Part shown: positions 4,530 through 62,006 of the stretch, one piece after another
How the letters are laid out: each line of letters begins with the position of its first letter
Numbering within the stretch: the stretch's first letter is position 1
Origin: Isoetes taiwanensis
Lineage: Eukaryota > Streptophyta > Lycopodiopsida > Isoetales > Isoetaceae
Direction: 5' to 3'
DNA length: 64,000 nucleotides
Assembly: GCA_021234155.1 (NCBI GenBank)
Contig: JAJEKV010000040.1
Span: 11,615,072-11,679,071 of the forward strand
Program-made: the position numbers and the translations under genes
Notes under the pieces: generated by a model
Seen by the model: only the letters and a program-made list of their open reading frames with translations
The model's database searches: none
What the model was told of the DNA's origin: nothing

Positions 4530-5974
4530 GACATACTACTGCAGCAGTGCTGAATGGGAAATAAATACAGTTTGACAATAGTTCCCTGGCTGCAAATAAA
4601 ATGAGAAGGGGTTGACACCAAACAAACACCAGACAAATACTGTTAGACAACAATCTTCTGGCAGGAAATAAAATAGGCAGGGGAAAATATTACTACTGCT
4701 GCACCAAGTTGGGCAGAATAGACACCAAGCAGAACAAACACCAAACAGGAAATAAACCCAACAGCAAACAGAAACAACAGATCAAAAGAAACAACCAGGT
4801 AGCGGACAGCTTGGTCCTTGTTCTACATTCAAATAAATCAATTCTATTCCGCTCCTCCTTATCTCGCTGCTACAGTTCTCCTGATTCCTGATAGAGGATG
4901 CTCCGTAGGCCACCATGCATCTCTAAATCGGGCAGTGGTGGATGCTCCTTCTATTCCATCCGGCAAACTAAACCTATTCGACTTTGGGTCGATGGATGCC
5001 TACTCCTCCCTTTCATATCAGCGAGAAGATAAATTAGAGCTCTCCACAATAATCCAGAACTCCGCCGAAGCAAAGATCTAGTATTTGGCATGTTGCCAGT
5101 GCTTCACAAGAAAAGGCCAATTTGTTGGACGTCCGTATTTAGAGTCCGGGATGTGGTATTTCTGGGCTTTTTTAGTGGTATTTATGGACATCCATTATCA
5201 GCCAGGTGGTATTTCCGGCCAAAAAAAGTGGTACTTCCGGGCCAAAAAGTGTGGTATTTCCAGCCAAAAAGTGGCAGTTCTGGCCAAAAACCAAGCGCGA
5301 AACTGGGCGGCGGAGCTAAGATCTTTGGTCGGATCGTTCTTGCAGCTCCATGGGCGGCTTGAACTGCTTCAAAAACCCTTCTAATCACTTTGTCTACCTC
5401 TTTAACTTTGGTTTGATGAAGAGAGGAAGCGATTTGAGCTCAGATAGAGCCGGATTGATCCAAAAACGCCCCAAAATAGTTGGTTCCGGGCTTGAGGCTG
5501 TGAAATGTACAGTGACTGATAACGGGTGTCCAGAAATACCACAAAAAAAGTCCGAAAATACCATATCTCGGACTCTAAATACTGCGGGCCCAATTTGTTG
5601 CATGGTCTACTCTTCTGCCAATTGAACATTCAAACCAATTTAGATGAGTAAAGAACCAAATATTGTCTAACTATCGAGTTCGCAGGTAGCACAACACGGC
5701 CAGACAACTCCTTCCTATTAAGAGGAGCTGTTGAAAAGCTTCCAAAGCGTCTGGTTCTAATCCAAAACATGCTTAAATATCCTGCTGCTACTTAAATACC
5801 ATGCCATTGCTCAAACCCATCACAGATAAACTTGGCTGCTGCCTTGCCCTTAAATATGCCGCCATATAACTCACAAATGTTTCGCTCTTCACACAACGGC
5901 TCACTCTTATAGCCATAAATTGTCTCTTCTAGAATCTTCCAGCAGATCTTGATTTTAGGGACGAGCTTCTTGAA
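4530..5974 (+). repeat. Outer direct repeat A, left copy
   Basis: This segment returns in the same orientation at 62007-63444. Shared landmarks are the start (gacatactactgca), the Ile/Phe-rich stretch near 4826, 'gtagcacaacacggccagac' near 5685, and the end (gggacgagcttc). Outside these limits the flanks differ. The left copy carries an extra 462-bp insertion (5128-5589). The last ~58 bases (5917-5974) are also the start of the palindrome arm. The repeat does not begin TG or end CA, and no primer-binding site follows it, so it is not an ordinary LTR. No gene was recognised inside. Confidence 0.8.
5128..5589. mobile_element. MULE-like MITE in repeat A
   Basis: The ends are inverted copies over roughly 75 bases: both read inward as 'gtatttagagtccg' followed by 'tggtatttc' blocks, then 'ttatcag'. 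The insertion is flanked by the 11-base duplication ccaatttgttg (5117-5127 and 5590-5600). The other repeat A copy has one ccaatttgttg at the matching place (63066-63076), so the empty site is visible. Long terminal inverted repeats with a 9-11-bp duplication fit Mutator-like elements. There is no transposase; the element is non-autonomous. Confidence 0.8.
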
Positions 5975-6096
5975 GAAACGAAATCTTCCACAACGGTTTC
6001 TAGAAATTACTCCATCCTTTAGAATCTTCTACTAGCTTCCATTACAGGCACCATTGAATTTTTTTTTTTAATGTATAATTATAAAACATTCTAGAA
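5927..6096. promoter_or_regulatory. Cluster of heat-shock-element motifs
   Basis: The heat-shock element is a run of alternating GAA/TTC pentamers bound by HSF trimers. A perfect three-unit element (TTCTAGAATCTTC) lies at 5927-5939. Two-unit elements TTCnnGAA or GAAnnTTC occur at 5967-5974 (followed directly by another GAA), 5998-6005, 6022-6029 and 6089-6096. Five sites within 170 bases is dense even for AT-rich DNA. The cluster straddles the outer palindrome boundary and returns inverted at about 61828-61995; the first element also ends repeat A at about 63400. No downstream heat-shock gene is visible. Confidence 0.45.
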
Positions 6097-6121
6097 TCTA
6101 CCCTATTATAATTATACATTA
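6069..6121. repeat. 15-bp AT-rich inverted repeat
   Basis: TAATGTATAATTATA and its exact reverse complement enclose about 23 bases that include a TTCTAGAA site. The mirror copy lies at about 61801-61853. Confidence 0.6.
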
Positions 6122-6741
6122 GAGATAAAGCATCATAAAAATATGGTAAAAAAATTTAAATTGGTATGTTTATACCAAGTATATTTATCACGTTGTGTAT
6201 TGATAATTAATCAGTATAAAACATCATGAAAAATTATGCAGTTAATTTTATTATGTCAAGATACTAGGGAAGATAAATGTGCTCAAATACCAATCCCCTA
6301 AACTTGGCATATAAACATTAGTACATATCATGTACTCTAAGTATTTATAAAAATTAATTAAACCTACCATATTTCAATACCATGTCACAAAACAATGTTG
6401 GTTTATGACATTAGTAATATATATATTGATGAACCATCCTACATAACCAGACATAGTTTGTAAACTTTTGAAGTTGCACGTATTGATTTATGGCTTCAGT
6501 TTTCACTAACAAATCATTAAAATAAAGTCATATTGATTCAATTTTGGGGGCCTTGTGTCATCATGGTCCTTCATTAGACTTCATTGTCCCATAACCAGAC
6601 TTCATTACACCCGTATGGCCTATCGCCAGACTTTATTACACCCACATGGTCCAGTTTTGCAGAGCAAAATTGTGCTAAGGAAGTGCTGGATTTTTTTTTT
6701 TTTTTTTTGTACAGCACTATTAACTATTGACCCAATTGGCC

Positions 6742-7005
6742 ATCAGATTAGGACAAGTACATTCTAATTTTGTCTAATTGAATATTCGGATGCATATATT
6801 GCCCAACATGTGGTCCATAGCCACACCACCACCCCGGTGTCACGGGTTCAAACCTAGGCAACATTGATCTAGTAATGGAGACCTTAAAAATCCATTCCCT
6901 TGGAGTCACGGGTTCAAGTACGACCAACCAGTCCTGAGGTAGAGACCTTAAACTAGTCCTGAGGAGTTCGAGTTTGTGGTTTGAGTGTGTGTAGTTAGTT
7001 TGTTT
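6742..7005. repeat. Dispersed repeat shared with 45345-45525
   Basis: The block starting 'gattaggacaagtacatt' and including 'cacgggttcaaacctag' and 'gatctagtaatggagacc' occurs here, inverted in the right arm (about 60970-61200), and at 45345-45525, where it abuts the 5' side of the minus-strand LINE. On the minus strand its edge reads TKLECTCPNLMANW, close to TKLKCTCPNQMNEW of that LINE, so part of it is a LINE endonuclease-region relic. The string GGTTCAAACC fits a tRNA B box, so the other part could be a tRNA-derived SINE head. A T tract ends it near 6690-6708. Confidence 0.5.
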
Positions 7006-7105
7006 TTCTTTTTGGAGAGTTTTGGAGTTCGTTTTCTTAAGGACACTTTTTTAAGGACCTCTTTAAGGACTTAGTCTAATGCTGCAAAGTCCCTCAGCGG
7101 CGATG

Positions 7106-7212
7106 GGGGAAGCGCCCCCACCTCACTCATCCTGCTCGAGGGGAAGCGCCCCACCTCACTCATCGACCTCACTCTCGAGGGGGAAGCGCCCCCATCTCAC
7201 TATCTCACTCAC
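7106..7212. repeat. ~35-bp GC-rich minisatellite, 3 units
   Basis: Three degenerate units of 'ctcgaggggaagcgcccc' plus 'cacctcactcatc'. The mirror copy is at about 60725-60835. Confidence 0.7.
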
Positions 7213-7354
7213 TCACTTTTTTTTCTTCTTTTTAGTTGTTGTTGTTTGGGGTTTTATGCATGGTACCATTTTGTATACATTTTCAGCAGATTATACATGC
7301 CTGTAAGCAGAGAGAAAACGGGAAGAAAAGAGGCATGAAAAATTTTGGTGCACA

Positions 7355-7470
7355 ATAGAAGGAAGGAAGGAAGGTACTTTTATCGGGGGGAAATGCTACG
7401 AGGGAGAAGAAAGGTTAAAAAAAAAAAATCGGGGGGAAATGCTACGAGGGAGAAAAATTTGAGTTAATTT
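7355..7470. repeat. (GGAA)n run and 34-bp tandem duplication
   Basis: A short GGAA microsatellite precedes two copies of 'tcggggggaaatgctacgag', separated by an A tract. The mirror copy is at about 60460-60580. Confidence 0.7.
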
Positions 7471-7646
7471 AGGCGGGAGGCGCTTCCACGGACGGAAAAA
7501 GCCACGCACGGGAAAAGTGGCATTCTCAAAAATAACCTAATTTTCTGACATAAACCGAAATTAAATGAATGATGGTTATATTAAATTTATGAAAAGGAGC
7601 CTGAGATGAACAAGTTTTCGTCCACAAAGATTCCAACTTATACCCA

Positions 7647-7662
7647 GCAATGCTGGGCACCA
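7647..7662 (+). mobile_element. 3' hairpin of an older Helitron, interrupted
   Basis: cccagcaatgctggg followed by cacca is the hairpin near the end of a Helitron whose last bases (ttactag, 12160-12166) now lie beyond the younger Helitron inserted here. The intact version stands at 20521-20547 (hairpin cccagcaacgctggg, then caccattaCTAG, then host T). Right-arm copies are intact at about 60254-60280 and 57100-57127. A hairpin of about 15 bases, roughly 12 bases before CTAG, fits the Helitron 3' rule (hairpin, then CTRR, then host T). The 5' end of this older element was not found. Confidence 0.6.
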
Positions 7663-8099
7663 TCTTCTTATTTAAAAAGGCAAGGCCTTGGTTTTTGTGC
7701 CGGAACGCCGCATGTTACGCCGCTTGCGGTCCCCTTCCGGGACTATTTTGAATTTCGTCCCTCCACTTGCTATTCGACTTTCGTAGTTCAGACCGGATGA
7801 AGGTTGCTATGGTGTCGACCACATTCTATCCTAATTCTTAGCTTCGTCAAACATGCATGCCACACAAGTACGTTATTTTGGCATTCATTTAGAAAGGCAA
7901 AATTATCAAGCTAGATTTCGCCCCATTCGCAAGAGTTACTTCTTTTGAGGAGAATGTGAAATCTTCAATAGGTAAGGAAGCTTCTGACAAATGTGAGCTT
8001 CTTGCTGGCTGATAAATCTTGAATTGGCGGTCTCTTACTTATATATTGGAGACAATATGCTGCTATTTTCTAGGTGCATTCTGTTTTTTTCCCTTTTTT

Positions 8100-8280
8100 T
8101 TGTAGTATGCGCCAAGGCATCTGGATCTGTTCAAAGTCGAACTATGAAGGCTTGAAGATATTGGAACTGTTGTGAGGGTTACTATACTGCTGAAGGTCTT
8201 CCATTGTTTGTAACTAGAGATGTTCTGAAGCAAGAAAATCAGATCGATCATCTTTGGATCGCCACATTACAAGGTTTGCT
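8100..8280 (+). pseudogene. Unidentified captured exon fragment
   Basis: After a pyrimidine tract ending in tgtag, the plus strand reads CEGYYTAEGLPLFVTRDVLK in one frame up to about 8270. The codon pattern and acceptor-like start suggest an exon carried by the Helitron. I do not recognise the family. Confidence 0.35.
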
Positions 8281-9029
8281 TTTTTACATTAAAATTTTTT
8301 GGACGGTGCTTATGGCATTTTCAGACGATGTTTTTACGCTCGGGCAGTTATTAATGTGCAGATGCTTAATTGAGAGCCGATTAGATCTTCATAAGCAGAG
8401 TGCTCAACATTCCTCTCCTCTGCCTTTCTACGGTTCCTTCCAGAGCTTGAAAACGGCAGAAGTAAATAAAATGCCGGAGTCCGCGGGCAGCAGCATCCGA
8501 CATTAGCACCCGTTAGAAGATGTTTGCTGATGATGGTGGCAGCGTTGTGCAAGATTTGTGGCTGCAGAACAAATACAAGGTAGATTACAGTTTACTATTT
8601 TTCTAACACAGCTCTTTGTTTCTAGGTTTCTTTTTCCTTTGCATAGAAGTACTTTGTGTCTGAAACTCTTAGCCCTTGCAATATACCATAGTCAACATTT
8701 GCTTGCCGCAGGACATTTTTGAATCTAGACAATCTTGCAATTTAGATTGGTACTGTGCTTCTTTGATGCAGGAAAACTTTAAATATGCAGTCCAAAGGTA
8801 AAAATGTCAGTACATGTTTTTATTGCTATTTTGATTTGTATAAGGTTTATAAAAATTTTATCTAATTTTTTCCCAGAGATGTTCACTTAGCTGAAGGAAC
8901 AAACAGCATTTACAGTTTTGTTGATGTCAACATTTAGATTTTCTTTAAAGCACTTTGTGCATTCTGAATTCGATGCTTGCAGCCTATAGTCTAATCCCCT
9001 CAAGTGCCATTGTTCACTTCCACTGAGTT

Positions 9030-9330
9030 CTAAATGAGGCAGCGGAGCTCAAAATGCCATTGTCTGATGGTGGAATCATCTCTTCCATCTACAACGCCAT
9101 GCCTAAGTTTGGAGTGGAGGGATGGTCCTTCTCAAGGGAATCTGATTTTGTATGGCTTGATATGCTCTAAGATCTTTATAGAATAGTATTGTTAGAAACA
9201 TAATGAAGGCATGTTGCACTTATTTTTTGCTATATGCAGACAGGTCAAGACTCCATTGGGACTTGGAAGCACCCAAATGACATGATTTTTGCAATGGCAT
9301 ATGGGGCTTTTGTCATGTTTCTTGAAATAG
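9030..9330 (+). pseudogene. Two unidentified captured exon fragments
   Basis: The frame at about 9033-9140 reads LKMPLSDGGIISSIYNAMPK and continues FGVEGWSFSR. After an intron-like stretch ending in 'gcag', a second open frame at about 9239-9330 reads GQDSIGTWKHPNDMIFAMAY, then GAFVMFLEI, before a gtaggt donor-like site. Both look protein-coding in origin but I do not recognise the family. They are internal to the Helitron. Confidence 0.4.
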
Positions 9331-9444
9331 GTAGGTTTATGCTAATTATCTGTTATGCATTATAACCCATAACATTTTCTATTCAACCATTGGTAATAGG
9401 TCTAATTTTTACTTTTGATGTTGCAGCTTCCAAAAATAGGTTCT

Positions 9445-9594
9445 TGGGGATTTGTTGAATGGATACCTACCAATATTAAGTCCTCGGTTTGTGATATTCC
9501 TCCGAAGAGTCTCAAGATGCCTGCTACCTTTGTTGGCAAGTCTACTTCCATCTAAGAGATGCTTAGACATGTTAATGAAAACAGCTTACTGCCA
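9445..9594 (+). pseudogene. Captured beta-tubulin fragment
   Basis: The frame from 9445 reads [20 protein letters not shown], then [16 protein letters not shown], a stop, then EMLRHVNE. This follows the C-terminal part of beta-tubulin (...[18 protein letters not shown], ...FIGNSTSIQEMFRRVSEQ). The stop replaces the usual Gln of SIQEMF (CAA to TAA), and the upstream residues are frameshifted. Only about 45 residues remain, with an acceptor-like 'ttgcag' just before. Gene-fragment capture is a known habit of plant Helitrons. It cannot make tubulin. Confidence 0.8.
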
Positions 9595-9699
9595 TGCTCC
9601 GGTGCAACAATTCGATGGATGCACTTACAATAAAGCAAAGATACTTCTATGGTAAGTGATGCTGCCCTTTCTTTTTTCTGCTTTTTGTTTTTTATGTAT

Positions 9700-9842
9700 A
9701 GAGTGCAGAGGAGCGATATGCATGCAGGGAACAGTTGACAAAAGTGGCAATATGCAGAATGTGCAAACGTGGATATCATGCCCAAAAAGTACTAATAAAT
9801 GCCGCAATTGCATTGGAGCCATTGGAATGATACTATTCAGTC
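9700..9842 (+). pseudogene. Unidentified captured exon fragment
   Basis: One frame reads AEERYACREQLTKVAICRMC, then KRGYHAQKVLINAAIALEPLE and a stop, followed by 'caggtaac', a donor-like sequence. It is probably an exon of a captured gene. I do not recognise it. Confidence 0.35.
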
Positions 9843-10079
9843 AGGTAACTACAACTTTAGTGCTACATGGTACTCTATACCTGCTCTGTTAAATGGACAT
9901 AACCATTTATTTGTGTAACAAATAGATACAACAATAGTCTCTTTACTCAAATTTGTGCATAGCTAATTGTGATGCCTATTATTACGTTATCTTCTGCATA
10001 AAGCTTTGTGCTTATACATTGTAATACTTGCTGTTTCGCTTCTATTGGGTGCAGGTTTGTTAGAAATATAGTTTGGTGA

Positions 10080-10200
10080 ATGCTTGGTCTTTACAAGTGG
10101 AAAGCTTTATCAACTGAAGAGCATAGGATGTTGAGTGATGCAAATAGCATGATGGAAATGGTAAATGATGTTCAGAACAGCAGACAAAGATTTGGTCAAT
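10080..10200 (+). pseudogene. Unidentified captured exon fragment
   Basis: The frame reads LYKWKALSTEEHRMLSDANS, then MMEMVNDVQNSRQRFGQF. It is polar and helix-like, without a known motif. It follows 'gtgcag', which resembles an acceptor site. Origin unknown. Confidence 0.35.
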
Positions 10201-11099
10201 TTATGCACTTTGATTTCTTCATATGTGCATGCAATCAAATCCATGTCATTTCTTCCTTCTGGCTTCTGTACAAACATTAATGACAATAGCCAACTGCCAA
10301 CAGCTAGAGGAGAGGAGCTATGTGCTACAACCATTCATGTCATAGAATGTATTTTCAACATCTGTATGGTCTCTATATTTTCAACATTTGTACGGTCTCT
10401 TTGAATTGAAATTCAATATCAAACACCCTTAGAGTTGTTATTAGCTCGAGAATTCGTTGACTTCATTTTAACCCTAAACCCTTATTTACAAACTCTAGGT
10501 TTACGGAGCGCCAAAAAATAAGTAGCAGTTACACCGACTTCCATATATTATTCTACATTACTGGTGTACTACCAATGTACAAAATATCATGCATTGTCTA
10601 TAGTTTTAAGCGTGGATATGCTAAAATACGTACATCTTATTCTACATTTTATTCTGTCTTTGGATGCAATATATAGGCACAAAATTATTATTTTTTTTCA
10701 AATCGATATATGCGCTTAATTATATATTCAGGATTTTTCAGGCAAATAAATTCGTAACCAAAGCCAAGGGTTCAGTTTACACTCATTATTATTGTGATAC
10801 CTTTTGCAAACATGTCTAAATTTGAATGTAGGAAAATCGTTCAAATAATTTTGCATCTTGACGTGCAAACAACAGTAAAACATGCACTTTGTTGTTTAAA
10901 TTCTTGGCACATGGTTTTCAATAATAACATGTAGGTTATAAATAAGAAGATTTTGTAAGTGAGAAGATTGCTAAATAAGATGTGAGTGATTGTCATTTTT
11001 ATATTCTCTAAACAATAATAAATATTTCATGGTTATGTGAACAATGCTACATATGTATCTTGGAAACATACCTTATGTGATAGGCATGGGATACTCTTA

Positions 11100-11327
11100 C
11101 CTTGGTTTCGGGGTTCCTAGAGGTGTTCTCTCGACTCGAGAGACCGACCCCCCCTCACAGTTTGCACAATATGGGTGCAAAATTCTAGACCCTTATAGAG
11201 ATTTGGGCTTTCTGAGGTGTACCCAGCGCCCGCAATATGGGTGCAAAATTCTAGACCCTTATAGATATTTGGGGCTTTTGGGATGTACCCACCACCCCCA
11301 AAAAAAAAAAAAAAAAAAAAAAAAATT
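11100..11327 (+). repeat. Tandem 72-bp duplication ending in poly(A)
   Basis: Two copies of a ~72-base unit containing 'caatatgggtgcaaaattct' and 'agacccttatag' (from about 11166 and 11233) are followed by about 28 A (11299-11326). The 3' A tract suggests a short retroposed sequence (SINE or LINE tail) carried inside the Helitron. Confidence 0.5.
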
Positions 11328-11592
11328 CCAAAGAATCGAATGGGACTAGTTTCGTACTGGTAGGAATTGAGTGAGTACCTTCATGGGGAGAGAGCTCTAT
11401 CCGGCAAAAAATGGCCCCAAACTATGCAGTAACTGCTGTGAGATCTCAAAGAGGGGGTTTATTTTTCGATGATACCGAAGGCTAGGAACCAAACTAGAGC
11501 AAAGATATCTTCAACTGCTATGACAGGAATTCAATTTTTGCAAGTCTAAACCGAGTTTCACTGTCACGCATAAAAATCCGTCATGTGCCAAA

Positions 11593-11660
11593 TCATCTAT
11601 TTATTTAGAAATGCAAGGTGTTGGATTTTCGTGCTCGGAACGACCCATGTGACCATGCAT
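11593..11660 (+). mobile_element. Internal Helitron 5'-like terminus
   Basis: TCATCTATTTATTTAGAAATG then 'ggtgttggattttcgtgctcggaacg' (split here for length) resembles the true 5' end at 7663 (TCTTCTTATTTAAAAAGG, then '...ggtttttgtgccggaacg') and the terminus at 34081. It follows an A, as a Helitron start should. The 567-bp stretch 11593-12159 could thus be a complete short Helitron whose 3' end was adopted by a longer upstream unit. Confidence 0.55.
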
Positions 11661-12166
11661 GCAGCATCTCCTCACCCCATGTGCCAGATTTTCATTTCAA
11701 CATTCACGGCTAATCATTTAAATCTCTAAAGAACCCCATAGACAATTTGGTCTCTGCGAATGTTAAAAATGAATTCGACTCAATTCCTTTACAATGTATG
11801 CAAATATTATATAGAATAGAATATAATAGAATTGTATTTAATATTACATTGTCATGAAGGAAGAGGAGATGTGATATCACTATAATATGTGTATTGTAAC
11901 ATCTTCATGAGGATTATGTCCAGCCTCATACATATTTTGGAAGTAAAATTTTGAATCTAAAGTAGAAGAAATATAGTAGATACAACGTTTTGTTTCGACT
12001 TAACTGCTTCACTTATTCTCTTAGTCTTCGTTGTTGACCACATGATGCATCTATGCCCTCCATTATCTATCTATTACATCCATCCATGCACTTCATTACA
12101 TCCCAGCCATTTCACGCATGCATGAGTAATGCCCGGCATCGCCGGGCACACGTGCCTAGTTACTAG

Positions 12167-13178
12167 TTATTGACGAAGCTTGTGGAGTGGGTTGTCCTGG
12201 TTACTGCCTTTCTGAAATGGATTAGAAACTTGATCATCAAACCTCCAGGTGTCACAAGCAATAGTTTCCTCGATTTCCTTGATGAAAACAACCTCTTTAT
12301 CTCCAATGTCAAAAAAATTGCCTTGTGGTATCTGGATCCATAGAAATAGAGTCACTATGCAGCATCTCCGTCCGAACATAAACCGCTTGAAAGGTCAATT
12401 TTTAGCCAAGCTAAATGAAACTGCAATGGCACACAAAATAGAAAAGGGGCTGAAGTATGATAGAATGTGGGATAATGTAGGCTTCTTTTGGGGTCTTTTT
12501 AAATTCTTTACTCTTTTTTTGCGGGATAAAGAAGGATCTGTGAATTCAGCTTTGGGTCTTCAGGCTGGACCTTTGGCGAATCATCAGCTAACCTTTTCCT
12601 TCCTGTCATTTAGTGCAGCTCAATTCAACAAACTTGGGGCGCAAGGGTCTTACTGAATCTTCAATCAAGAGGCACAAATGACTCGGATGGAGATTGGGGA
12701 TACTCTGGTTTCCCTGAAGGCTTACATCATCAGGGCGAAAGTACTGAGGAGGATTCTGGAGGAGGTGGACTTATGGCAGCATACTCTCAAGCCGATGTTT
12801 AAGAAGCTATTTCAAGAACAACAGAGACAGAGGAAAGCCTTGTCCATTATGGTGTTGGATAACACCATGCATACAATCCAAGAGTTAGATGACTGGCTTC
12901 AAGAATAATATAGATGAATTAGACCTTGGAGACCTGATCCAATCTAAACTTGAAGTCTTTTGAGTCTGAAACTTAGCTACAAGCTTCTTACTTAAAGAAA
13001 CTTTATTGGTATCTAGCTATAGCTAATCTAAAATTACATCCGTTTTTGACAGAACGTCTGATGATCTCTTTAATTTTCCTATCTCAAGAGATCCCTTTTG
13101 ACATGGGCTACCTAGTGCATCCTTTATTTATGTATTTCTAGTTCTAATGAATACAAACCCCTGCCTTGATTTAAAAAA
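12167..13178 (+). pseudogene. LINE 3' end (ORF2 C-terminus), unit 1
   Basis: Frames at 12249-12656 and 12678-12905 match the C-terminal end of the minus-strand LINE at 41889-45401: W[IK]HRN, then ...LKGQFLAKL...MAHKIEKGLKYDRMW, and later LKPMFKKLFQ...TMHTIQELDDWL against LKPLFEALFH...SYTIDELDYML. The two frames are separated by a shift, and reverse transcriptase is absent, so it is a 5'-truncated relic. It ends with 'ccttgattt' plus A(10) at about 13168-13178, then a CA-rich microsatellite. The 5' limit coincides with a Helitron 3' terminus. Confidence 0.75.
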
Positions 13179-13209
13179 AAAATACACACAAACGCGCACA
13201 CACACATAC

Positions 13210-13956
13210 ACACGTCGAAATTCTATTGGCTAGACCATGCATAGGCTGGAATATTAAAAGAGGAGGCCCCAATGGATCCACGCTCTATCCTGGACCGTCG
13301 ATTCAATAAGGTGATTCTCCCCTCCGAAATCATCAATGCAGGAGGACCCAGGTACCCACAACAATGGGATTCCAAAGGTCGGGATACCAGAGGTGGAATC
13401 CCGGCCTCTGGGATTGCTATGCTGATAATGGTCATGGGATCTCAGAGGCCGGAATAACTGAGGCTGATAAAAGAAGCGTGATCTCGGAGGGCGGGATTAC
13501 ACAGGCCAATGGTGTGGCATGTCGTCCAGGTCAGCCACGGATGCGGGATCCTAGAGGGCGGGATCCAGGAACACTGTGGTTGATGGCGTGGCATGTCGAC
13601 CAGGTCAGCCACAGACGCGGGACCGCCGAGGATCACGGAGGCCCACTGTGGCTGATGGCGTGGCATGTCAGCTATGCCATCACGGAGGCGAGATCCTGGA
13701 GGGCGGGATCACGCGATCCCGCTGCTGGGGATCCCGAAGACGGGGATGACGGTGTGGATAATGGAGTTGTTGGAGTTAGAGCCCCTGGTTGGTATATTCA
13801 TAGCGCCTCCAACATCCATGTTTCTTTGCTGCTTGGGGCTCCTCCCCTTGTTCTCTATTGTGATTTCTTATGGGGCATAGTCCCGACTTCTGTTGGGGCT
13901 CATGCCCTCCTTTTCTGTTCTGGTCCCATAACCCGTTGAGTTTCCATGGACACTAA
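13210..13956 (+). repeat. GC-rich repeat segment, unit 1
   Basis: This segment is rich in degenerate 'cgggatcc' and 'gatggcgtggcatgtc' repeats, which leave a 191-codon frame (13364-13939) open. The product is repetitive Gly/Arg/Trp-rich sequence without a domain, so I do not call it a gene. Copies occur at 21630-22420, 55250-56030 and 58440-59200. The end, 'ggtcccataacccgttgagtttccatggacac' (two pieces of under 20 bases joined here), resembles the 3' tail of the minus-strand LINE relic at 37769, so it may be the 3' UTR of a LINE. Confidence 0.5.
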
Positions 13957-13961
13957 GAAAC

Positions 13962-15603: not shown

Positions 15604-15646
15604 GAAACTCTCATCTTTTCTTAGCTTAACTTATCTTATCTCTAGC

Positions 15647-15764
15647 TTATGTGTGTCTTGCTTTGGTATTATAGAGTAGGCATACATCCTTCCCTTCCAT
15701 GTATTGGGGCACGTGTATGTTGCAATCTTCAGCCGCACAAATAGGACCATTGAACCAAAAAAGC

Positions 15765-15797
<33 letters not shown>

Positions 15798-17625: not shown

Positions 17626-17665
<40 letters not shown>

Positions 17666-50282: not shown

Positions 50283-50298
50283 TTGCTCTGATACCACT

Positions 50299-50916
50299 GT
50301 TAGAAATAAGCAGTGAATAGAACTAATATCATGTAACAATGTTAGATTTTCTTAGATTGATAATCATCTATGTGTAAGAAACACCTCAATCTAATAGCAC
50401 AAGATGATTTTATATTCAACTCAACAAAAAACCAATTGTATAACACTAGCCAAGTTACTTCTTCAACTTATCATTAACATTGGCAGTTATGACCATTGGA
50501 AATAATCTTAGCATTACTGTTCATATGAGATCGATGAGGATACTGTAGCTTCAAACTTCAAATAGGTCATTCAATTTCAAATCGATTCATACCTGCTTCA
50601 CGATTGCTCCTGCTAATTTCCAATGAACCAAACCTCTGTATTACATCTTTATTTATCTTTGCAGTCCGACGGTCAAGCCAGACCGCCGATTGGCTCTTCA
50701 TGTCTTCGTCATATTGAATCGATTCATTTGAACCGAAATTGGCTCCAAGGATCTCTGCGAGCTCATCCGAATATTCCTTGACTTATTGGCAGGTGCTTTA
50801 GGTACTCAATCTTCATCATCGGATCTTATGTGCTTTAGGTGCTATCTCAACTTTCTCACCTGTCACAGAATTTCCTTGAATATTTTTCCATCTCAATTAT
50901 GGCATGAATTCTAACA
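50299..50916 (-). mobile_element. Copia 5' LTR, right
   Basis: Mirror of 26717-27337, 618 bp, with the same TG...CA ends. The primer-binding site lies at about 50286-50297 on the minus strand. Next to it is ATGACCGACC, the reverse complement of the AKR-intron insertion site. Confidence 0.88.
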
Positions 50917-52172: not shown

Positions 52173-52179
52173 AAATTTG

Positions 52180-52335
52180 CGGCCCATAGTGGTTGGAACG
52201 TTTTGGCACGTAATGGGGAATGGAATGGAGGAAGCCTCCATTCTTGCTGCCCCTATGACCTGTAGGATTGGGGAGCGCCCTTGGGGAAGCCATTCTTGCT
52301 GCCCCCATGACCGAATAAATCGATTCTATGTGGTT
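52180..52335. repeat. Segment S, right-arm copy
   Basis: Mirror of 25311-25472; see there. Confidence 0.75.
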
Positions 52336-52979
52336 TTGCAAGGCCGTTTGTCATTTTTGATCAGAATGGCTCAAGAATTTTTAAGAATTGATGTTATGAT
52401 CTTGAATCTTTGCATTGATGTCTTAGATATAGGATACAATTGTCACAAAACAGAGTATGGCTAGGCCTTACACAGAGGAACATGGCGTTGTTCCAAATAC
52501 TTTGATGATTGCGAAATTAATGTCTTCTCATGCAGTTGATTCGGTTCCTTTTGCTCAGTGGCAATAATGTCTTCAGAATTTATTGTTGATGTTGTTTAGC
52601 TGCTCAATTTTTATAGGAGCGTTAAGTTAATTAACAAACAGTATGATTAGCAACTGTCCAATCCAGGTTCCAATACACAAAAGATACAGGTTGACAACCA
52701 GGAAACTATATATAAGACCAATGTTGAGAATGGAGAAGATAATTCGAATATAATGAAGTACTACTTACATTGTAAATATAACAAGCATGAAATGAAAAAA
52801 GGATGAACGTTCGTGGCACCCAAAAACAAAAGAAGGAAACAATACAATGAAGAGAATTATGATATATGATAGCCCAAGGCGGGCAAGGATACAACAAACG
52901 AGATTATAAGTATGCAAATAATGTCATTATTGATGAGAAAGTGGAGAGAGGCGAAGGCTGGGATTAAAAAAAGAATGAT

Positions 52980-53207
52980 CTAGTGATGACGAGGAGGAGT
53001 AAAATGATCATACACACCACCCAAAGCCGGACCCGCAACACCTTCAAAAACAGGTCCGGCTTTGGGTTTGGGGAAAACCGTAATTCGGAACCGAAACTTC
53101 TCTTCCCCTTTTGCGTGTTGGTTGTAGATCGCAATTCTACGCCTTTGCACTAAGCAAATGACCATTGCCAATAGAACAACAAACACCGCCGCTACGGCCT
53201 TCACCAT
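52980..53207 (-). pseudogene. Secreted peptide, right copy, altered
   Basis: Mirror of 24448-24672. The start (MVKAVAAVFVVLLAM) and end (KPKAGPVFEGVAGPALGGVY, then DHFTPPRHH) are identical, but residues 16-45 differ through substitutions and compensating small indels (RRRIAIYNQHAKGEEKFRF). Most of the differing sites are CAG or CTG in the left copy. If those are consensus errors, the two copies encode the same peptide. Confidence 0.6.
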
Positions 53208-53657
53208 AATTTTACGCTTTCGATGCTTCTGTTCGCTTTAGTCTTATTTGTAGCCTCTCCATTAATTACCTCCAACTGTACTCCCTTAATTGGTTGGTAT
53301 AACTAACCAGGCTGTGAATCGTGCGCATAGGCTGGTTCTTTTTACCATGCATCAATCAATTGCGCGTCTTTTGGCTCTACGAAAAGCAGATCTTGTTATT
53401 AGATAGTAATTCCAACCCACGACTGAATTTCCCCGGTTGTTCAAACTGTCATTTAGGCTTTTCCGGCTCCACGTCTTTATGTCCCCAGGTCGGCACAAAA
53501 TTTTATGCTGATAAAATTTACTCTCATACTGCTTATGTAGGAGTGATGGTTAAAAATCCGTTTGCTAAACATTCACATTATCAGAACCGAACCGATAGAG
53601 AAACTGTCTTTTAAGCTTGTCCAACTTTAGACGACCCCACGTCTTTATGGTAGAGGT
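53208..53657. other. Peptide upstream flank, mirrored at 23996-24447
   Basis: Shared by both arms. It includes 'tctttatgtccccaggtcgg' and a 97-codon frame in both arms (24040-24333 minus; 53321-53614 plus) without a recognised domain. Confidence 0.45.
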
Positions 53658-53755
53658 AATGTTCGCCCGCAGGCCCTTACGCGGGGTAAGGACCTGGCGA
53701 GCCCGGCAGGGCGAGCCTGGTCCGCACCCCGCGTAAGGGCCTGCGGGCGAACATT
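53658..53755. repeat. Perfect GC-rich hairpin, 30-bp arms
   Basis: AATGTTCGCCCGCAGGCCCT... at 53658-53687 is matched base for base by its reverse complement at 53726-53755, with a 38-base GC-rich centre that pairs partly. Degenerate forms lie at 23906-23995 and, truncated, at 20060-20150. The outermost AATGTT/AACATT belongs to the inverted ends. Such compact foldbacks can be MITE remnants or replication-blocking structures. Confidence 0.88.
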
Positions 53756-54690
53756 TTCTCACATAAAGTTAAGGGGGGAGGATATTTCTTGCCACGTGGC
53801 GCCATCGTAGCCACAAAAATTTGATTACTCCGTTATCAGCCAGCACGTCTTTATGTCTCCCACGTCGACAACTTTATTCTTCTCCATCAATTGGGTTTCG
53901 CTTTATTGCACCAAACAAATCCACCTTCAATGAGATCGATGTCCAAATTCAACACATCCACCACAAATTTGCAATGTCAGGGATAGCTGTATTCTTGTCC
54001 AAGTATAGCAACTAGTCATCTCGTATCTAAATAAGTAAAGGATGTTCCAATTCCACACACTTGCTGTAAATAATATTGCTAGGCTCAATAACATTCAAAA
54101 TCACATGAAATTCTTGTCCATACACTCGGTGATTTCTTTATTGCACCAACAATTGCATCAAGCATTGCCATCGTCACATGTTGCAAACAAATCAGCCTTC
54201 AAGTATTGTTGACAAATTGTCAATAGACATTTGGAAATGATGTTCTAAGGACACAAGGTTGCTATAATAACATTGCTAAGTGTATGTCATAACATTATAC
54301 AAAATGATACAAAAGAATCCAAACAGGAAAAAAAAATAGCCAGACAAAAGGACACATGCATATACAATCTTCTACTTGAATTTCTCCTCTCTTTTTACCT
54401 TTCATTCTTGTAGATGCAAGTGAAGAATGAGTGAAAATGGCAAGGCCATGCATCTATAGAAATTTTTTTACCTTCAAGGCAACATCTTGGATCATAGTCA
54501 AGAGCACACAATGCTCATCAGTTTATAGCAAGCATGTAATAATGTCTTTGAGTCTTAAGCACATAGTAATGGAAATTATGGCAACACATTCTAATCGTAT
54601 ATCCTATACTTGAAAAGTGTCAATTCAATTAAGGATGAGGGAGAATAGACAACCGGTAAACACGTAGGCATGCAAATTAAAAAACTAGTA
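53756..54690. repeat. Spacer of duplicated unit, right copy 2
   Basis: Mirror of 22980-23905. No gene was recognised. Confidence 0.65.
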
Positions 54691-54801
54691 GTAGGGTAGA
54701 CTTGGGGGGTAGAGAAGAGTGGTTGCAGAGGGGGATTGAAGATGATAAAATTAGAAAACTAGAACGGACCTATATATTATTTGTGTCGCAGTCGCTTATA
54801 A

Positions 54802-55203
54802 GTGTGTTGTTGCACAAGTACCACAGAAGTTTTCTCTCTAAATGCCTTCCTTCTTAATGCTCATGCTTGGTGGAGGCACTTGTTGGCTATGACCATAATA
54901 TTGTACAAAGTTGTGAGAGGATACAAAGAAACAAAGCAATCACTATGTACAAATTGTGACTGGCGCATTCTAGATGGTTTGCAGATGATCGATATTCTAA
55001 AGTTAATCCTAGTGTGTCACAAGAGACAATTATTCCATTGGTGTACATTTTTCACTTTGTTTCAGCTTCCCTTTTTTTTTTTTTGGCTTTTTTGGTTCAA
55101 TGGTCCTATTTGTGCGGCTGAAGATTGCAATATACACGTGCCCCAATACGTGGAAGGGAAGGATGTATGCCTACTTTATAATACCAAAGCAAGATACACA
55201 TAA
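54802..55203 (+). CDS. Unrecognised ORF, third copy
   Basis: Same frame as 15647-16063 (133 codons here). The T tract is about 13. See first copy for content and doubts. Confidence 0.25.
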   Translation: MCCCTSTTEVFSLNAFLLNAHAWWRHLLAMTIILYKVVRGYKETKQSLCTNCDWRILDGLQMIDILKLILVCHKRQLFHWCTFFTLFQLPFFFFWLFWFNGPICAAEDCNIHVPQYVEGKDVCLLYNTKARYT

Positions 55204-55249
55204 GCTAGAGATAAGATAAGCTAAGTTAAGAAAAGATGAGAGCTTTTTA

Positions 55250-56030
55250 GTGTCCATGGAAACTCAACAGGTTATGGGACCAGAACAGAAAAGGAGGGCA
55301 TAAGCCCCAACAGAAGTCGCGACTATGCCCCATAAGAAATCACAACAGAGAACAAGGGGAGGAGCCCCAATACAAGGAAAGAAGAACAAAAGGCGCAGCA
55401 AAGAAACATGGATGTTGGAGGCGCTATGAATATACCAACAAGGGGCTCTAACTCCAACAACTCCATTATCCGCACCGTCGTCCCCGTCTTTGGGATCCCC
55501 AGCAGCGGGATCGCGTGATGCCCCCCTCCGGGATCTCGCCTCCGTGATGGCCTAGCCGACATGCCACGCCATTAGCCATAGTGGGCCTCCGTGATCCTCG
55601 GCGGTCCCGCGTCGTGGCTGACACGGCGACATGCCACGCCATCAACCACAGTGTTCCTGGATCCCGCCCTCTAGGATCCCGCATCCGTGGCTGACGTGGA
55701 CGACATGCCACACCATCGACCTGTGTAATCCCGCCCTGTGTAATCCCGCCCTCCGAGATCACGCTTCTTTTATCAGCCTTGGCTATTCCGGCCTCTGGGA
55801 TCCCACGACCATTATCAGCATAGTAATCCCAGAGGCCGATTCCACCTCTGTTATCAGCCAGTGGTATCCCGACCTTTGGAATCCCATTGTTGTGGGTACC
55901 TGGGTCCTCCTGCATTGATGCTTTCGGATGGGAGAATCACCTTATTGAATCGACGGTCCAGGATAGAGTGTGGGTCCATTGGGGCCTCCTCTTTTAATAT
56001 TCCAGCGTATGCATGGTCTAGCCAATAGAA
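55250..56030 (-). repeat. GC-rich repeat segment, right copy 2
   Basis: Mirror of 21630-22420. Near 55505-55515 and 55610-55630 small differences from the left copy change the frame. Confidence 0.6.
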
Positions 56031-56039
56031 TTTCGACGT

Positions 56040-56087
56040 GTGTATGTGCGTGCGCGCGTGTGTGTGTGTGTGTGTGTGTGTTTTTTT
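56040..56087. repeat. (GT)n/(GC)n microsatellite at LINE tail
   Basis: Mirror of 21569-21620. It directly adjoins the poly(T) of the minus-strand LINE copy. The corresponding tracts at 13178-13212 and 59205-59245 differ in length. Confidence 0.85.
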
Positions 56088-57099
56088 AATCAAGGCAAGG
56101 GTTTATATTCATTAGAACTAGAAATACATAAATAAAGGATGCACTAGGTAGCCCATGTCAAAAGGGATCTCTTGTATAGGAAAATTAAAGAGATCATCAA
56201 ACTTTCTGTCTAAAACAGATGTAATTTTAGATTAGCTATAGCTAGATACCAATAAAGTTTCTTTAAATAGCTATATCAGTAAGAAGCTTGTAGCTAAGTT
56301 TCAGACTCAAAAGACTCCAAATTTAGATTGGATCAGGTCTCCAAGATCTAATTCATCTATATTATTCTTGAAGCCAGTCATCCAACTCTTGGATTGTATG
56401 CATGGTGTTATCCAACACCATAATGGACAAGGCTTTCCTCTGTCTCTGTTGTTCTTGAAATAGCTTCTTAAACATCGGCTTGAGAGTATGCTGCCATAAG
56501 TCCACCTCCTTCGGAATCCTCCTCGTTACTTTCGCCCTCATGATGTAAGCCTTCAGGGAAACCAGAGTATCCCCAATCTCCATCCGAGCCATTTGTGCCT
56601 CTTGATTGAAGATTCAGTAAGACCCCTGCGCCCCAAGTTTGTTGAATTGAGCTGCAATAAATGACGGGGAAGGAAAAGGTTAGGCGATGATTTGCCAAAG
56701 GTCCAGCTTGAAGACCCAAAGCTGAATCCACAGATCCTTCTTTATCCCGCAAAAAAAGAGTAAAGAATTTAAAAAGACCCCCAAAGAAGCCTACGTTATC
56801 CCACATTCTATCATACTCTAGCCTCTTTTCTATTTTGGGTGCCATTGCAGTTTCATTTAGCTTGGCTAAAAATTGACCTTTCAAGCGGTTTATGTTCGGA
56901 CGGAGATGCTGCATAGTGACTCTATTCCTATGGATCCAGATACCACAAGGCAATCTTTTTTTACAGTGGACATAAAGAGGTTGTTTCCATCAAGGACATC
57001 GAGGAAACTATTGCTTGTGACACCTGGAGGTTTGATGATCAAATTTTTAATCCATTTCAGAAAGGCAGTAACCAGGACAACCCACTCCACAAGCTTCAT
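56088..57099 (-). pseudogene. LINE 3' end, right copy of unit 2
   Basis: Mirror of 20548-21568, with frames at 56362-56592 and 56468-56953. It is bounded on its 5' side by the Helitron hairpin at about 57100-57127. Confidence 0.75.
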
Positions 57100-57129
57100 C
57101 AATAACTAGTAATGGTGCCCAGCGTTGCT

Positions 57130-57935
57130 GGGTATAAGTTGGAACCTTTGTGGACGAAAACTTGTTCATCTCAGACTCCTTTTCATAAATTTAATATAAT
57201 AAAAACCAAGTTCAGCATTGCTGGGCTATAATAGATTTTTATGTATTCGACAACCTTCCCCTTTCCTTTGTCTTTTGCTTTATTCCACCAAACAAATCCA
57301 CCTTCAATGAGATCGATGTCCAAATTCAACACATCCACCACAAATTTGCAATGTCAGGGATAGCTGTATTCTTGTCCAAGTATAGCAACTAGTCATCTCG
57401 TATCTAAATAAGTAAAGGATGTTCCAATTCGACACACTTACTGTAAATAATATTGCTAGGCTCAATAACATTCAAAATCACATGAAATTCTTGTTCATAC
57501 ACTCGGTAATTTCTTTATTGCACCAACAATTGCATCAAGCATTGCCATTGTCACATGTTGCATTGCCAGACAAAAGGACACATGCATATACAATCTTCTA
57601 CTTGAATTTCTCCTCTCTTTTTACCTTTCATTCTTGTAGATGCAAGTGAAGAATGAGTGAAAATGGCAAGGCCATGCATCTATAGAAATTTTTTTACCTT
57701 CAAGGCAACATCTTGGATCATAGTCAAGAGCACACAATGCTCATCAGTTTATAGCAAGCATGTAATAATGTCTTTGAGTCTTAAGCACATAGTAATGGAA
57801 ATTATGGCAACACATTCTAATCGTATATCCTATACTTGAAAAGTGTCAATTCAATTAAGGATGAGGGAGAATAGACAACCGGTAAACACGTAGGCATGCA
57901 AATTAAAAAACTAGTAGTAGGGTAGGGGGATTGAA
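57130..57935. repeat. Spacer of duplicated unit, right copy 1
   Basis: Mirror of 19636-20520 but without the left-only block. Around 57555-57565 it lacks about 200 bases present in copy 2. Homology to the left arm is interrupted at about 57895-57930, the empty site of the left 3.4-kb block. Confidence 0.7.
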
Positions 57936-57996
57936 GATGATAAAATTAGAAAACTAGAACAGACCTATATATTATTTGTGTCGCAGTCGCTTATAA

Positions 57997-58413
57997 GTGT
58001 GTTGTTGCACAAGTACCACGGAAGTTTTCTCTCTAAATGCCTTCCTTCTTAATGCTCATGCTTGGTGGAGGCACTTGTTGGCTATGACCATAATATTGTA
58101 CAAAGTTGTGAGAGGATACAAAGAAACAAAGCAATCACTATGTACAAATTGTGACTGGCGCATTCTAGATGGTTTGCAGACGATCTATATTCTAAAGTTA
58201 ATCCTAGTGTGTCACAAGAGACAATTATTCCATTGGTGTACATTTTCACTTTGTTTCAGCTTCTTTTTTTTTTTTTTTGGCTTTTTTGGTTCAATGGTCC
58301 TATTTGTGCGGCTGAAGATTGCAACATACACGTGCCCCAATACGTGGAAGGGAAGGATGTATGCCTACTCTATAATACCAAAGCAAGACACACATAAGCT
58401 AGAGATAAGATAA
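57997..58413 (+). CDS. Unrecognised ORF, fourth copy
   Basis: Same frame as 15647-16063, of which it is the mirror. The T tract is about 15, against about 27 in its partner. Confidence 0.25.
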   Translation: MCCCTSTTEVFSLNAFLLNAHAWWRHLLAMTIILYKVVRGYKETKQSLCTNCDWRILDGLQTIYILKLILVCHKRQLFHWCTFSLCFSFFFFFFGFFGSMVLFVRLKIATYTCPNTWKGRMYAYSIIPKQDTHKLEIR

Positions 58414-58439
58414 GTTAAGCTAAGAAAAGATGAGAGTTT

Positions 58440-59200
58440 CTTAGTGTCCATGGAAACTCAACGGGTTATGGGACCAGAACAGAAAAGGAGGGCATGAGCC
58501 CCAACAGAAGTCGGGACTATGCCCCATAAGAAATCACAACAGAGAACAAGGGGAGGAGCCCCAATACAAGGAAATAAGAACAAAAGAAGCAGCAAAGAAA
58601 CATGGATGTTGGAGGCGCTATGAATATACCAACCAGGGGCTCTAACTCCAACAACTCCATTATCCGCACCGTCATCCCCGTCTTCGGGATCCCCAGCAGC
58701 GGGATCGCGTGATCCCGCCCTCCAGGATCTCGCCTCCGTGATGGCATAGCTGACATGCCACGCCATCAGCCACAGTGGGCCTCCGTGATCCTCGGCGGTC
58801 CCGCGTCTGTGGCTGACCTGGTCGACATGCCACGCCATCAACCACAGTGTTCCTGGATCCCGCCCTCTAGGATCCCGCATCCGTGGCTGACCTGGACGGC
58901 ATGCCACACCATTGGCCTGTGTAATCCCGCCCTCCGAGATCACGCTTCTTTTATCAGCCTCAGTTATTCCGGCGTCTGAGATCCCATGACCATTATCAGC
59001 ATAGCAATCCCAGAGGCCGGGATTCCACCTCTGGTATCCCGACCTTTGGAATCCCATTGTTGTGGGTACCTGGGTCCTCCTGCATTGATGATTTCGGAGG
59101 GGAGAATCACCTTATTGAATCGACGGTCCAGGATAGAGCGTGGATCCATTGGGGCCTCCTCTTTTAATGTTCCAGCCTATGCATGGTCTAGCCAATAGAA
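58440..59200 (-). repeat. GC-rich repeat segment, right copy 1
   Basis: Mirror of 13210-13956, with a 24-base insertion near 58575-58600 relative to it. Its end (about 58434-58440) is the empty site of the solo LTR. Confidence 0.6.
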
Positions 59201-59249
59201 TTTCGACGTGTGTATGTGTGTGTGTGCGCGCGTGTGTGTGTATTTTTTT

Positions 59250-60253
59250 TTTAAATCAAGGCAGGGGTTTGTATTCATTAGAACTAGAAATACATAAATA
59301 AAGGATGCACTAGGTAGCCCATGTCAAAAGGGATCTCTTGAGATAGAAAAATTAAAGAGATCATCAGACTTTCTGTCAAAAACGGATGTAATTTTAGATT
59401 AGCTATAGCTAGATACCAATAAAGTTTCTTTAAGTAAGAAGCTTGTAGCTAAGTTTCAGACTCAAAAGACTTCAAGTTTAGATTGGATCAGGTCTCCAAG
59501 GTCTAATTCATCTATATTATTCTTGAAGCCAGTCATCTAACTCTTGGATTGTATGCATGGTGTTATCCAACACCATAATGGACAAGGCTTTCCTCTGTCT
59601 CTGTTGTTCTTGAAATAGCTTCTTAAACATCGGCTTGAGAGTATCTTCGCCATAAGTCCACCTCCTCGGAATCATCCTCGATTACTTTTCGCATACGATG
59701 ATGTAAGCCTCAGGGAAACCGAGTATCCCCAATCTCCATCCGAGTCATTTGTGCCTCTTGATTGAAGATTCAGTAAGACCCTTGCGCCCCAAGTTTGTTG
59801 AATTGAGCTGCACTAAATGACAGGAAGGAAAAGGTTAGCTGATGATTCGCCAAAGGTCCAGCCTGAAGACCCAAAGCTGAATCCACAGATCCTTCTTTAT
59901 CCCGCAAAAAAAGAGTAAAGAATTTAAAAAGACCCCAAAAGAAGCCTATGTTATCCCACATTCTATCATACTTCAGCCCCTTTTCTATTTTGTGTGCCAT
60001 TGCAGTTTCATTTAGCTTGGCTAAAAATTGACCTTTCAAGCGGTTTATGTTCGGACGGAGATGCTGCATAGTGACTCTATTTCTATGGATCCAGATACCA
60101 CAAGGCAATTTTTTTGACATTGGAGATAAAGAGGTTGTTTTCATCAAGGAAATCGAGGAAACTATTGCTTGTGACACCTGGAGGTTTGATGATCAAGTTT
60201 CTAATCCATTTCAGAAAGGCAGTAACCAGGACAACCCACTCCACAAGCTTCGT
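59250..60253 (-). pseudogene. LINE 3' end, right copy of unit 1
   Basis: Mirror of 12167-13178. Frames at 59770-60177 and about 59520-59750 are broken by small indels, some near CAG/CTG sites (59645-59715). The Helitron hairpin follows at 60254-60280, uninterrupted. Confidence 0.75.
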
Positions 60254-60280
60254 CAATAACTAGTAATGGTGCCCAGCATT
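60254..60280 (-). mobile_element. Older Helitron 3' end, empty site of the 4.5-kb Helitron
   Basis: On the minus strand it reads hairpin cccagcaatgctggg, then caccattactag and T. The left arm carries the young Helitron between 'cacca' and 'ttactag' of the same string. Confidence 0.75.
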
Positions 60281-62006
60281 GCTGGGTATAAGTTGGAATC
60301 TTTGTGGACGAAAACTTGTTCATCTCAGGCTCCTTTTCATAAATTTAATATAAACATCATTCATTTAATTTCGGTTTATGTCAGAAAATTAGGTTATTTT
60401 TGAGAATGCCACTTTTCCCGTGCGTGGCTTTTTCCGTCCGTGGAAGTGCCTCCCGCCTAAATTAACTCAATTTTTTCTCCCTCGTAGCATTTCCCCCCGA
60501 TTTTTTTTTTTAACCTTTCTTCTCCCTCGTAGCATTTCCCCCCGATAAAAGTACCTTCCTTCCTTCCTTCCTTCCTTCTATTGTGCACCAAAATTTTTCA
60601 TGCCTCTTTTCTTCCCGTTTTCTCTCTGCTTACAGGCATGTATAATCTGCTGAAAATGTATACAAAATGGTACCATGCATAAAACCCCAAACAACAACAA
60701 CTAAAAAGAAGAAAAAAAGTGAATGAGTGAGATAGTGAGATGGGGGCGCTTCCCCCTCGAGAGTGAGGTCGATGAGTGAGGTGGGGCGCTTCCCCTCGAG
60801 CAGGATGAGTGAGGTGGGGGCGCTTTCCCCATCGCCGCTGAGGGACTTTGCAGCATTAGACTAAGTCCTTAAAGAGGTCCTTAAAAAAGTGTCCTTAAGA
60901 AAACGAACTCCAAAACTCTCCAAAAAGAAAAACAAACTAACTACACACACTCAAACCACAAACTCGAACTCCTCAGGACTGGTTTAAGGTCTCTACCTCA
61001 GGACTGGTTGGTCGTACTTGAACCCGTGACTCCAAGGGAATGGATTTTTAAGGTCTCCATTACTAGATCAATGTTGCCTAGGTTTGAACCCGTGACACCG
61101 GGGTGGTGATGTGGCTATGGACCACATGTTGGGCAATATATAAATCCGAATATTCAATTAGACAAAATTAGAATGTACTTGTCCTAATCTGATGGCCAAT
61201 TGGGTCCTATTTAATAGTTAATAGTGCTGTACAAAAAAAAAAAAATTCCAGCACTTCCTTAGCACAATTTTGCTCTGCAAAACTGGACCATGTGGGTGTA
61301 ATAAAGTCTGGCGATAGGCCATACGGGTGTAATGAAGTCTGGTTATGGGACAATGAAGTCTAATGAAGGACCATGATGACACAAGGCCCCCAAAATTGAA
61401 TCAATATGACTTTATTTTAATGATTTGTTAGTGAAAACTGAAGCCATAAATCAATACGTGCAACTTCAAAAGTTTACAAACTATGTCTGGTTATGTAGGA
61501 TGGTTCATCAATATATATATTACTAATGTCATAAACCAACATTGTTTTGTGACATGGTATTGAAATATGGTAGGTTTAATTAATTTTTATAAATACTTAG
61601 AGTACATGATATGTACTAATGTTTATATGCCAAGTTTAGGGGATTGGTCTTCCCTAGTATCTTGACATAATAAAATTAACTGCATAATTTTTCATGATGT
61701 TTTATACTGATTAATTATCAATACACAACGTGATAAATATACTTGGTATAAACATACCAATTTAAATTTTTTTTACCATATTTTTATGATGCTTTATCTC
61801 TAATGTATAATTATAATAGGGTAGATTCTAGAATGTTTTATAATTATACATTAAAAAAAAAATTCAATGGTGCCTGTAATGGAAGCTAGTAGAAGATTCT
61901 AAAGGATGGAGTAATTTCTAGAAACCGTTGTGGAAGATTTCGTTTCTTCAAGAAGCTCGTCCCTAAAATCAAGATCTGCTGGAAGATTCTAGAAGAGACA
62001 ATTTCG

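Follow-up and report, generated by a model that had tools for sequence, protein, structure and literature searches.

The question raised by this locus is how a long stretch of DNA in Isoetes taiwanensis came to be followed, about 14 kb further on, by its own reverse complement, and whether the second copy arose in the plant or in the assembly. The window (C1046:11615072-11679071; 64,000 nucleotides of contig JAJEKV010000040.1, assembly GCA_021234155.1) was analyzed with flanks added from -70 kb to +144 kb. Coordinates are given in window numbering, negative values lying to the left of the window and values above 64000 to its right. The inverted repeat is an inverted segmental duplication inside a larger cluster. 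With moderate confidence it is read here as real, recent and interstitial, and as the product of fold-back or template-switch copying of its left arm.

Arm boundaries and colinearity were determined by self-BLAST of the window. Genome searches covered 1,658,258,908 bases in 1,110 contigs; the best candidates of each search were scored, and match counts refer to the candidates scored. The published assembly (1658.30 Mb in 204 scaffolds and 909 contigs) was built using Oxford Nanopore Technologies (ONT), Illumina/pilon, Bionano, LR_Gapcloser and purge_haplotigs (PMC8566536). The window gave no hits to Rfam (gathering thresholds) and none in a tRNA scan.

The outer boundaries (5917 and 62004) and inner boundaries (31700 and 45947) proposed in a first-pass annotation of the sequence were returned unchanged by self-BLAST, and its arms of 16-26 kb around a 14-kb spacer were measured as follows.

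5917-31700, plus strand: left arm, 25,784 bp; presumed template, both edges apparently ancestral
31701-45946, no strand assigned: spacer, 14,246 bp
45947-62004, minus strand: right arm, 16,058 bp; presumed inverted copy, both edges apparently novel joints

The same annotation spoke of a giant near-palindrome. The inverted duplication is there; the term overstates it, given a 14.2-kb spacer, unequal arms and membership in a cluster. Similarity between the arms was far above chance, and they were colinear in five blocks.

Block 1: left 5917-7663, right 62004-60266
Block 2: left 12160-13962, right 60266-58435
Block 3: left 15603-16217, right 58441-57872
Block 4: left 19637-19962, right 57910-57582
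Block 5: left 20147-31700, right 57506-45947

Arm identity, for which the annotation had pointed to a self dot-plot, was measured by alignment: 348 substitutions in 15,914 ungapped columns (2.19%) plus 91 gap events. The arms differ in length by 9,726 bp, and left-only insertions had been named as the reason; three left-only stretches make up nearly all of it (9,555 bp).

7664-12159, plus strand: Helitron, with 5'-TC and a 3' hairpin followed by CTAG-3', between A and T
13963-15602, no strand assigned: terminal inverted repeat (TIR) DNA transposon, with ends GTGACG...CGTCAC and the 7-bp target duplication AGAAACT
16218-19636, no strand assigned: 3.4 kb with 350-bp tandem repeats and a short direct repeat at both sides

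The criteria that we take to define a Helitron are a 5'-TC, a 3' hairpin followed by CTRR, and an A|T target without duplication; by this definition the first stretch is one. Its ends are TC...CCCGGCATCGCCGGGCACACGTGCCTAG, it occupies an A|T target, and an exact empty site lies at 60266 in the right arm. Among its 60 genome matches (40 of 735 candidates scored) are 10 that start at its 5' end and 5 that stop at its 3' end; the open reading frames (ORFs) listed within it are short. The TIR transposon has its empty site at 58435-58441 in the right arm and an 83% relative at -47225..-45602. The third stretch may have been gained by the left arm or lost from the right.

Which arm is the copy can be judged from the edges. 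The relevant pieces are these.

4527-5916, plus strand: old-unit segment A, the outer flank of the left arm
45684-45882, plus strand: old-unit segment b, the inner flank of the right arm
45883-45946, plus strand: filler at the inner joint of the right arm, with a 21-bp terminal ABCC-exon stretch present twice, and a third time at the arm start
62002-63444, plus strand: old-unit segment A', the outer flank of the right arm, of the same sequence as 4527-5973
31065-34086, minus strand: chimera of three gene fragments (AKR-like exons, an ABCC linker to NBD2, and a third piece)

Older direct units were found from -30 to -20 kb, near -2 kb, and over the outer edge of the left arm. Their blocks are mostly 86-94% identical, with 78-81% in the stretch labeled gene c. 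Both edges of the left arm continue elsewhere. The inner edge, 31700, falls within the ABCC exon of the chimera and was crossed in all four dispersed chimera copies examined: continuously in C1044, C948 and C1031, and in C974 as far as 31737, followed by a gap to 31841. The outer edge, 5917, is spanned gap-free by 63059-63444. The older unit at -21456..-20681 spans it too, minus about 17 bp (5904-5920) at that very place.

The right arm sits between b and A', both pieces of the old unit. Segment b lies within 88-92% matches to -29945..-29572 and -2242..-1716, both ending at 45882. Two other unit copies keep the order and orientation of b and A', with a distance of 7.0 kb between them (-29572 to -22539) in one and of 6.2 kb (-1716 to 4527) in the other, and older units run unbroken across the positions of both right-arm joints. 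At the inner joint, only the window passes 45882 among 43 matches (40 of 1,069 candidates scored), and only the window covers filler bases 1-47 of the query among 42 matches (40 of 54 candidates scored). At the outer joint only the window crosses 62004 among 40 matches (40 of 41 candidates scored), two others overrunning by 3 bases. Thus no other genome match among the candidates scored crosses either right-arm joint by more than 3 bases. Since the left edges are continuous elsewhere and the right edges are not, the right arm is read as the copy.

Two candidate explanations of the flanks were rejected. A mobile element at 4527-5973 was set aside because homology with the unit at -24291..-22307 continues through 4527. 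Shards near 45.4-45.8 kb, considered as template-switch debris of the arm, proved to be a high-copy repeat (45398-45684) and the old-unit segment 45684-45882. Separately, MITE-like (miniature inverted-repeat transposable element-like) insertions at 5128-5587 and 62243-62766 are related, about 72-77% identical where they match, and sit at different places of the A segment in the two flanks.

The joints themselves are short. At the outer joint a 3-bp TTT is common to the template ...GAGACAATTT and the old-unit TTTTTTCGGACATAC. At the inner joint the old-unit ...GTCAAGCA leads into CTATGTTTGAAGGCACTGTGC, which is the terminal ABCC-exon sequence of the arm itself; the filler contains it two times and the arm once more, ahead of GTTACAATC. 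Such a 21-bp reiteration is what would be expected of a polymerase restarting on its template. Homology of at most 3 bp at both right-arm joints speaks against a series of homologous exchanges among older direct and inverted units (non-allelic homologous recombination or gap repair), with no single long fold-back copy. Multi-copy units do occur in both orientations in the cluster, and the gene-c segment of the right arm is oriented as in the older unit, as such exchanges might leave it; even so, we regard this course of events as improbable.

The inverted ends at defined positions also invite the reading of the whole structure as one very large transposon with terminal inverted repeats of 16-26 kb. 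No target-site duplication was found at the outer ends, where the bases outside 5917 and 62004 differ, and the outer edge of the left arm lies within unit sequence that is continuous in other copies. Of ten ORFs scanned against Pfam, the five that lie wholly or partly in the spacer had ABC_tran and RVT_1 domains above the cut-off and no transposase. The large-transposon reading is therefore scarcely credible.

Under the favored reading of fold-back or template-switch copying, a break would have opened the right-hand old unit. The left break end (45882) would have taken the ABCC exon 14 kb upstream as its template, by folding back onto it or by a template switch, and synthesis may have restarted there twice, leaving the reiterated 21-bp filler. 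The left arm would then have been copied in inverted orientation over at least 16 kb, out to 5917, and the far side of the break rejoined at 62004 through the 3-bp TTT microhomology with the loss of 6-7 kb of the unit. The Helitron and the TIR transposon would have entered the left arm afterwards. Such a copying event would account for the polarity, both joints, the missing 6-7 kb and the spacer.

The first-pass annotation had offered as an alternative that two haplotypes were joined head to head. In its wider form, this explanation holds that the assembly inserted, in inverted orientation, either allelic haplotypes or the wrong sequence for a gap. Substitutions outside clusters (85 in 15,914 columns, about 0.5%) are in a plausible allelic range, the two transposons, present in one arm and absent from the other, might mark different haplotypes, the assembly made use of ONT, gap filling and haplotig purging (PMC8566536), and consensus quality in the arms is visibly poor. 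Against it, a third copy, T, lies 7 kb past the window at 71180-80345 (9.2 kb), oriented as the right arm and, over about 9 kb, 97.6% identical to the left arm and 97.9% to the right; the copies thus number three and are near-equidistant. The joints overlap by 1-3 bp, unlike read-overlap joins, and one carries iterated filler; two pieces of a single unit, in their native order, enclose the right arm; and Ns are absent from the 214 kb around the inverted repeat. The haplotype join is disfavored on these grounds, and an assembly artefact of any kind is considered unlikely, though of all the rivals set out here it deserves the most attention.

Divergence between the arms bears on a further rival, that of an old palindrome whose arms are kept similar by gene conversion, as on sex chromosomes, with the patches as conversion tracts. 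The total apparent difference between copies is about 3%, and it is patchy: of 34 alignment segments of at most 500 columns, 16 differ by at most 1%, 11 by 1.2-3% and 7 by 4.3-7.8%. Gene conversion was at first inferred from this pattern, and palindromes of the willow W chromosome have arms of about 20 kb with conversion (PMC7023750). It was set back by the clustering of the differences and by their motif. Isolated differences comprise 63 transitions, 22 transversions and 29 indel columns; the clustered ones, which are the majority, comprise 145 transitions, 118 transversions and 218 indel columns. A three-way alignment of both arms and T (9,050 columns) held 130 runs of differences, 43 of them with at least 3 differing columns. 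After 16 clusters without a clear odd copy had been set aside, the remaining 27 were scored for motifs. In 17 of these the odd copy was poorer in CAG/CTG motifs, in 1 it was richer, and in 9 the counts were equal (17 versus 1, sign test, p about 7e-5). CAG/CTG had the greatest loss excess of the 32 trinucleotide classes (17 lost, 1 gained), followed by AGG (7 and 1), and for AAA/TTT gains prevailed (14, against 2 losses). The small runs numbered 87; once 8 had been set aside, CAG/CTG was fewer in 24, more in 6 and equal in 49, so that errors may also account for part of the isolated differences. When the two arms alone were aligned, CAG/CTG counts were lower in one arm in 41 of 62 clusters; all four clusters of the outermost block had equal counts.

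From this we infer that nanopore consensus error at CAG/CTG makes up much of the apparent divergence, probably at CHG-methylated cytosines, and that real substitution divergence would be near 0.5%. In Listeria, base modifications make nanopore sequencing err at GCAGC and GCTGG (PMC10687267), and repeats are not reliably polished with short reads (PMC8812927); no literature joining nanopore basecalling errors, CHG methylation and plants was found. Clusters driven by error weaken the case for gene conversion, since most of those with a clear odd copy appear to be copy-private garbling at the motif lost most often of the 32 classes. In its favor, the 9 clusters with equal counts and the 16 without a clear odd copy mean that not all clusters are so explained. 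On balance an old, converted palindrome is held to be a poor prospect. With real divergence this low, the duplication would be recent in comparison with the older units.

Several observations weigh against fold-back copying of the left arm as set out above. The joints and the copy number come from a single assembly, for which gaps were filled (LR_Gapcloser) and haplotigs purged. The TTT microhomology was judged from the unit at -22.5 kb, and the A segment on the left has TTTTCTCCGACATAC; microhomology at the inner joint is only 1 bp. Both filler copies and the right arm have GGCACTGTGC, and the left arm, the presumed template, has GGCACCGTGC; likewise the left arm reads CACCGTGC versus CACTGTGC in all three. 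The flanking pieces are short, b being about 0.2 kb outside the high-copy repeat and A' 1.4 kb, and unit homology ends at 63444. The third copy looks native at 19960, where the left arm breaks, so that more than one step is needed. Substitutions in small runs are star-like (22 in the left arm, 29 in the right, 27 in T), which gives no support for derivation of the right arm from the left over derivation from the third copy.

Given the third copy, which is in direct orientation to the right arm, such copying seems to have happened more than once. As a tentative extension, the cluster may be an active hub where one block is flipped and re-inserted by repeated rounds of fold-back copying, as T (plus), left arm (minus) and right arm (plus); the joints would show polymerase restarts, and residual CAG/CTG errors would map CHG methylation over the arms. 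Beyond the window a tandem array at 95704-109304 has units of about 2.9 kb that are 96.6-98.3% identical.

The remaining contents of the locus are given below.

25478-31213, plus strand: AKR-like segment pair (25478-26720 and 29953-31213) around a truncated copia element
27313-30024, ORF of the truncated copia element: several Pfam domains above the cut-off
24352-24669: small secreted-protein-like ORF, no Pfam match above the cut-off
44327-44995, minus strand: LINE-type (long interspersed nuclear element-type) reverse transcriptase in the spacer, RVT_1 above the Pfam cut-off

The AKR-like label follows an Aldo_ket_red match of the adjoining exon that is below the cut-off (E 0.0027), and the naming of the two segments as AKR is accordingly provisional. 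They were considered as long terminal repeats of the copia element and rejected as such: both stop 9 nt past the presumed AKR exon-1 splice donor, and the copia element, with what we take to be its start motif, begins after that. Types of the AKR segments appear swapped between the arms, which may perhaps reflect error clusters likewise. In the chimera, ABC_tran is above the Pfam cut-off, and ABC_membrane and Aldo_ket_red are below theirs. It was also found on at least four other contigs (C1044, C948, C974 and C1031) at 93-97% identity, with ABCC introns kept and fragment borders overlapping by 2-4 bases; parent-like copies lie on C907, C1018 and C952, and several copies have the common end TTTTTGGGTTGCCCC... 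(hairpin and T-run). The dispersed chimera looks like a mobile element that captures gene fragments.

The spacer holds the remainder of the ABCC fragment and the third gene fragment (to 34086), together with purine/pyrimidine-rich stretches. A 91-bp piece (38886-38976) recurs in both arms. The high-copy repeat at 45398-45684, about 285 bp with a GGTTCAAACC box and in part also at 6796-6958, holds 39 of 43 matches, 37 of them near full length (40 of 1,069 first-look candidates scored), and is presumably a tRNA-derived short interspersed nuclear element. The arms carry an old internal duplication (54336-57199 and 57562-60353). The secreted-protein-like gene has copies at 52.9-53.3 kb, 70.8-71.1 kb and -29 kb; its right-arm copy keeps an open frame, with the protein changed at CAG/CTG sites. 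Nothing points to a function of the duplication; it is conceivable that inverted transcription gives rise to small RNAs.

The paper describing the genome raises the possibility of recent segmental duplications between scaffolds (PMC8566536). No description of this locus was found in that part of the literature which was searched, most subscription papers being outside it. The junction-level studies found on large inverted duplications concern human disease, cancer and yeast. The type of event is already known, and can be read here with unusual clarity; what is new, and useful, is a plant example with paralogous empty sites, the older units allowing joints, template and replaced sequence to be told apart in a plant genome. 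The locus also carries a caution: when a plant assembly is based on nanopore reads, patchy divergence between its repeats can stem from base-calling artefacts and not from gene conversion.

Human fold-back inverted duplications have spacers of 766-70,466 bp, with insertions at 5 of 21 joints, and involve terminal deletions, translocations or rings (PMC3907307). The present locus is alike in having a source, a spacer within that size range, an inverted copy beside the source, and microhomology or an insertion at the joint. Its 14,246-bp spacer has no duplicates of at least 150 bp from -50 to +134 kb other than LINE homology (70%) and old-unit pieces at its right end. At the spacer-inversion joint, where inverted microhomology of at least 2 bp or an insertion is expected, only the insertion was found. 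Unlike the human cases, the event is interstitial and rejoined on the far side, with A' continuing past 62004 in place of a terminal deletion, dicentric, translocation or ring; its arms are 16-26 kb, and it lies in a plant, nested in older repeats. It thus works like a fold-back inverted duplication, yet is not a classical member of that class. Templated insertions by microhomology-mediated break-induced replication (PMC8421209) likewise insert a copied segment through template switching at microhomology. Here an intact template lies nearby and the joints share 3 bp and 1 bp, the latter being weak; the copied segment differs in being at least 16 kb long. Palindromes of the willow W chromosome (PMC7023750) are also plant inverted repeats with arms of about 20 kb, and conversion is reported there, whereas the apparent tracts at the present locus look largely like errors.

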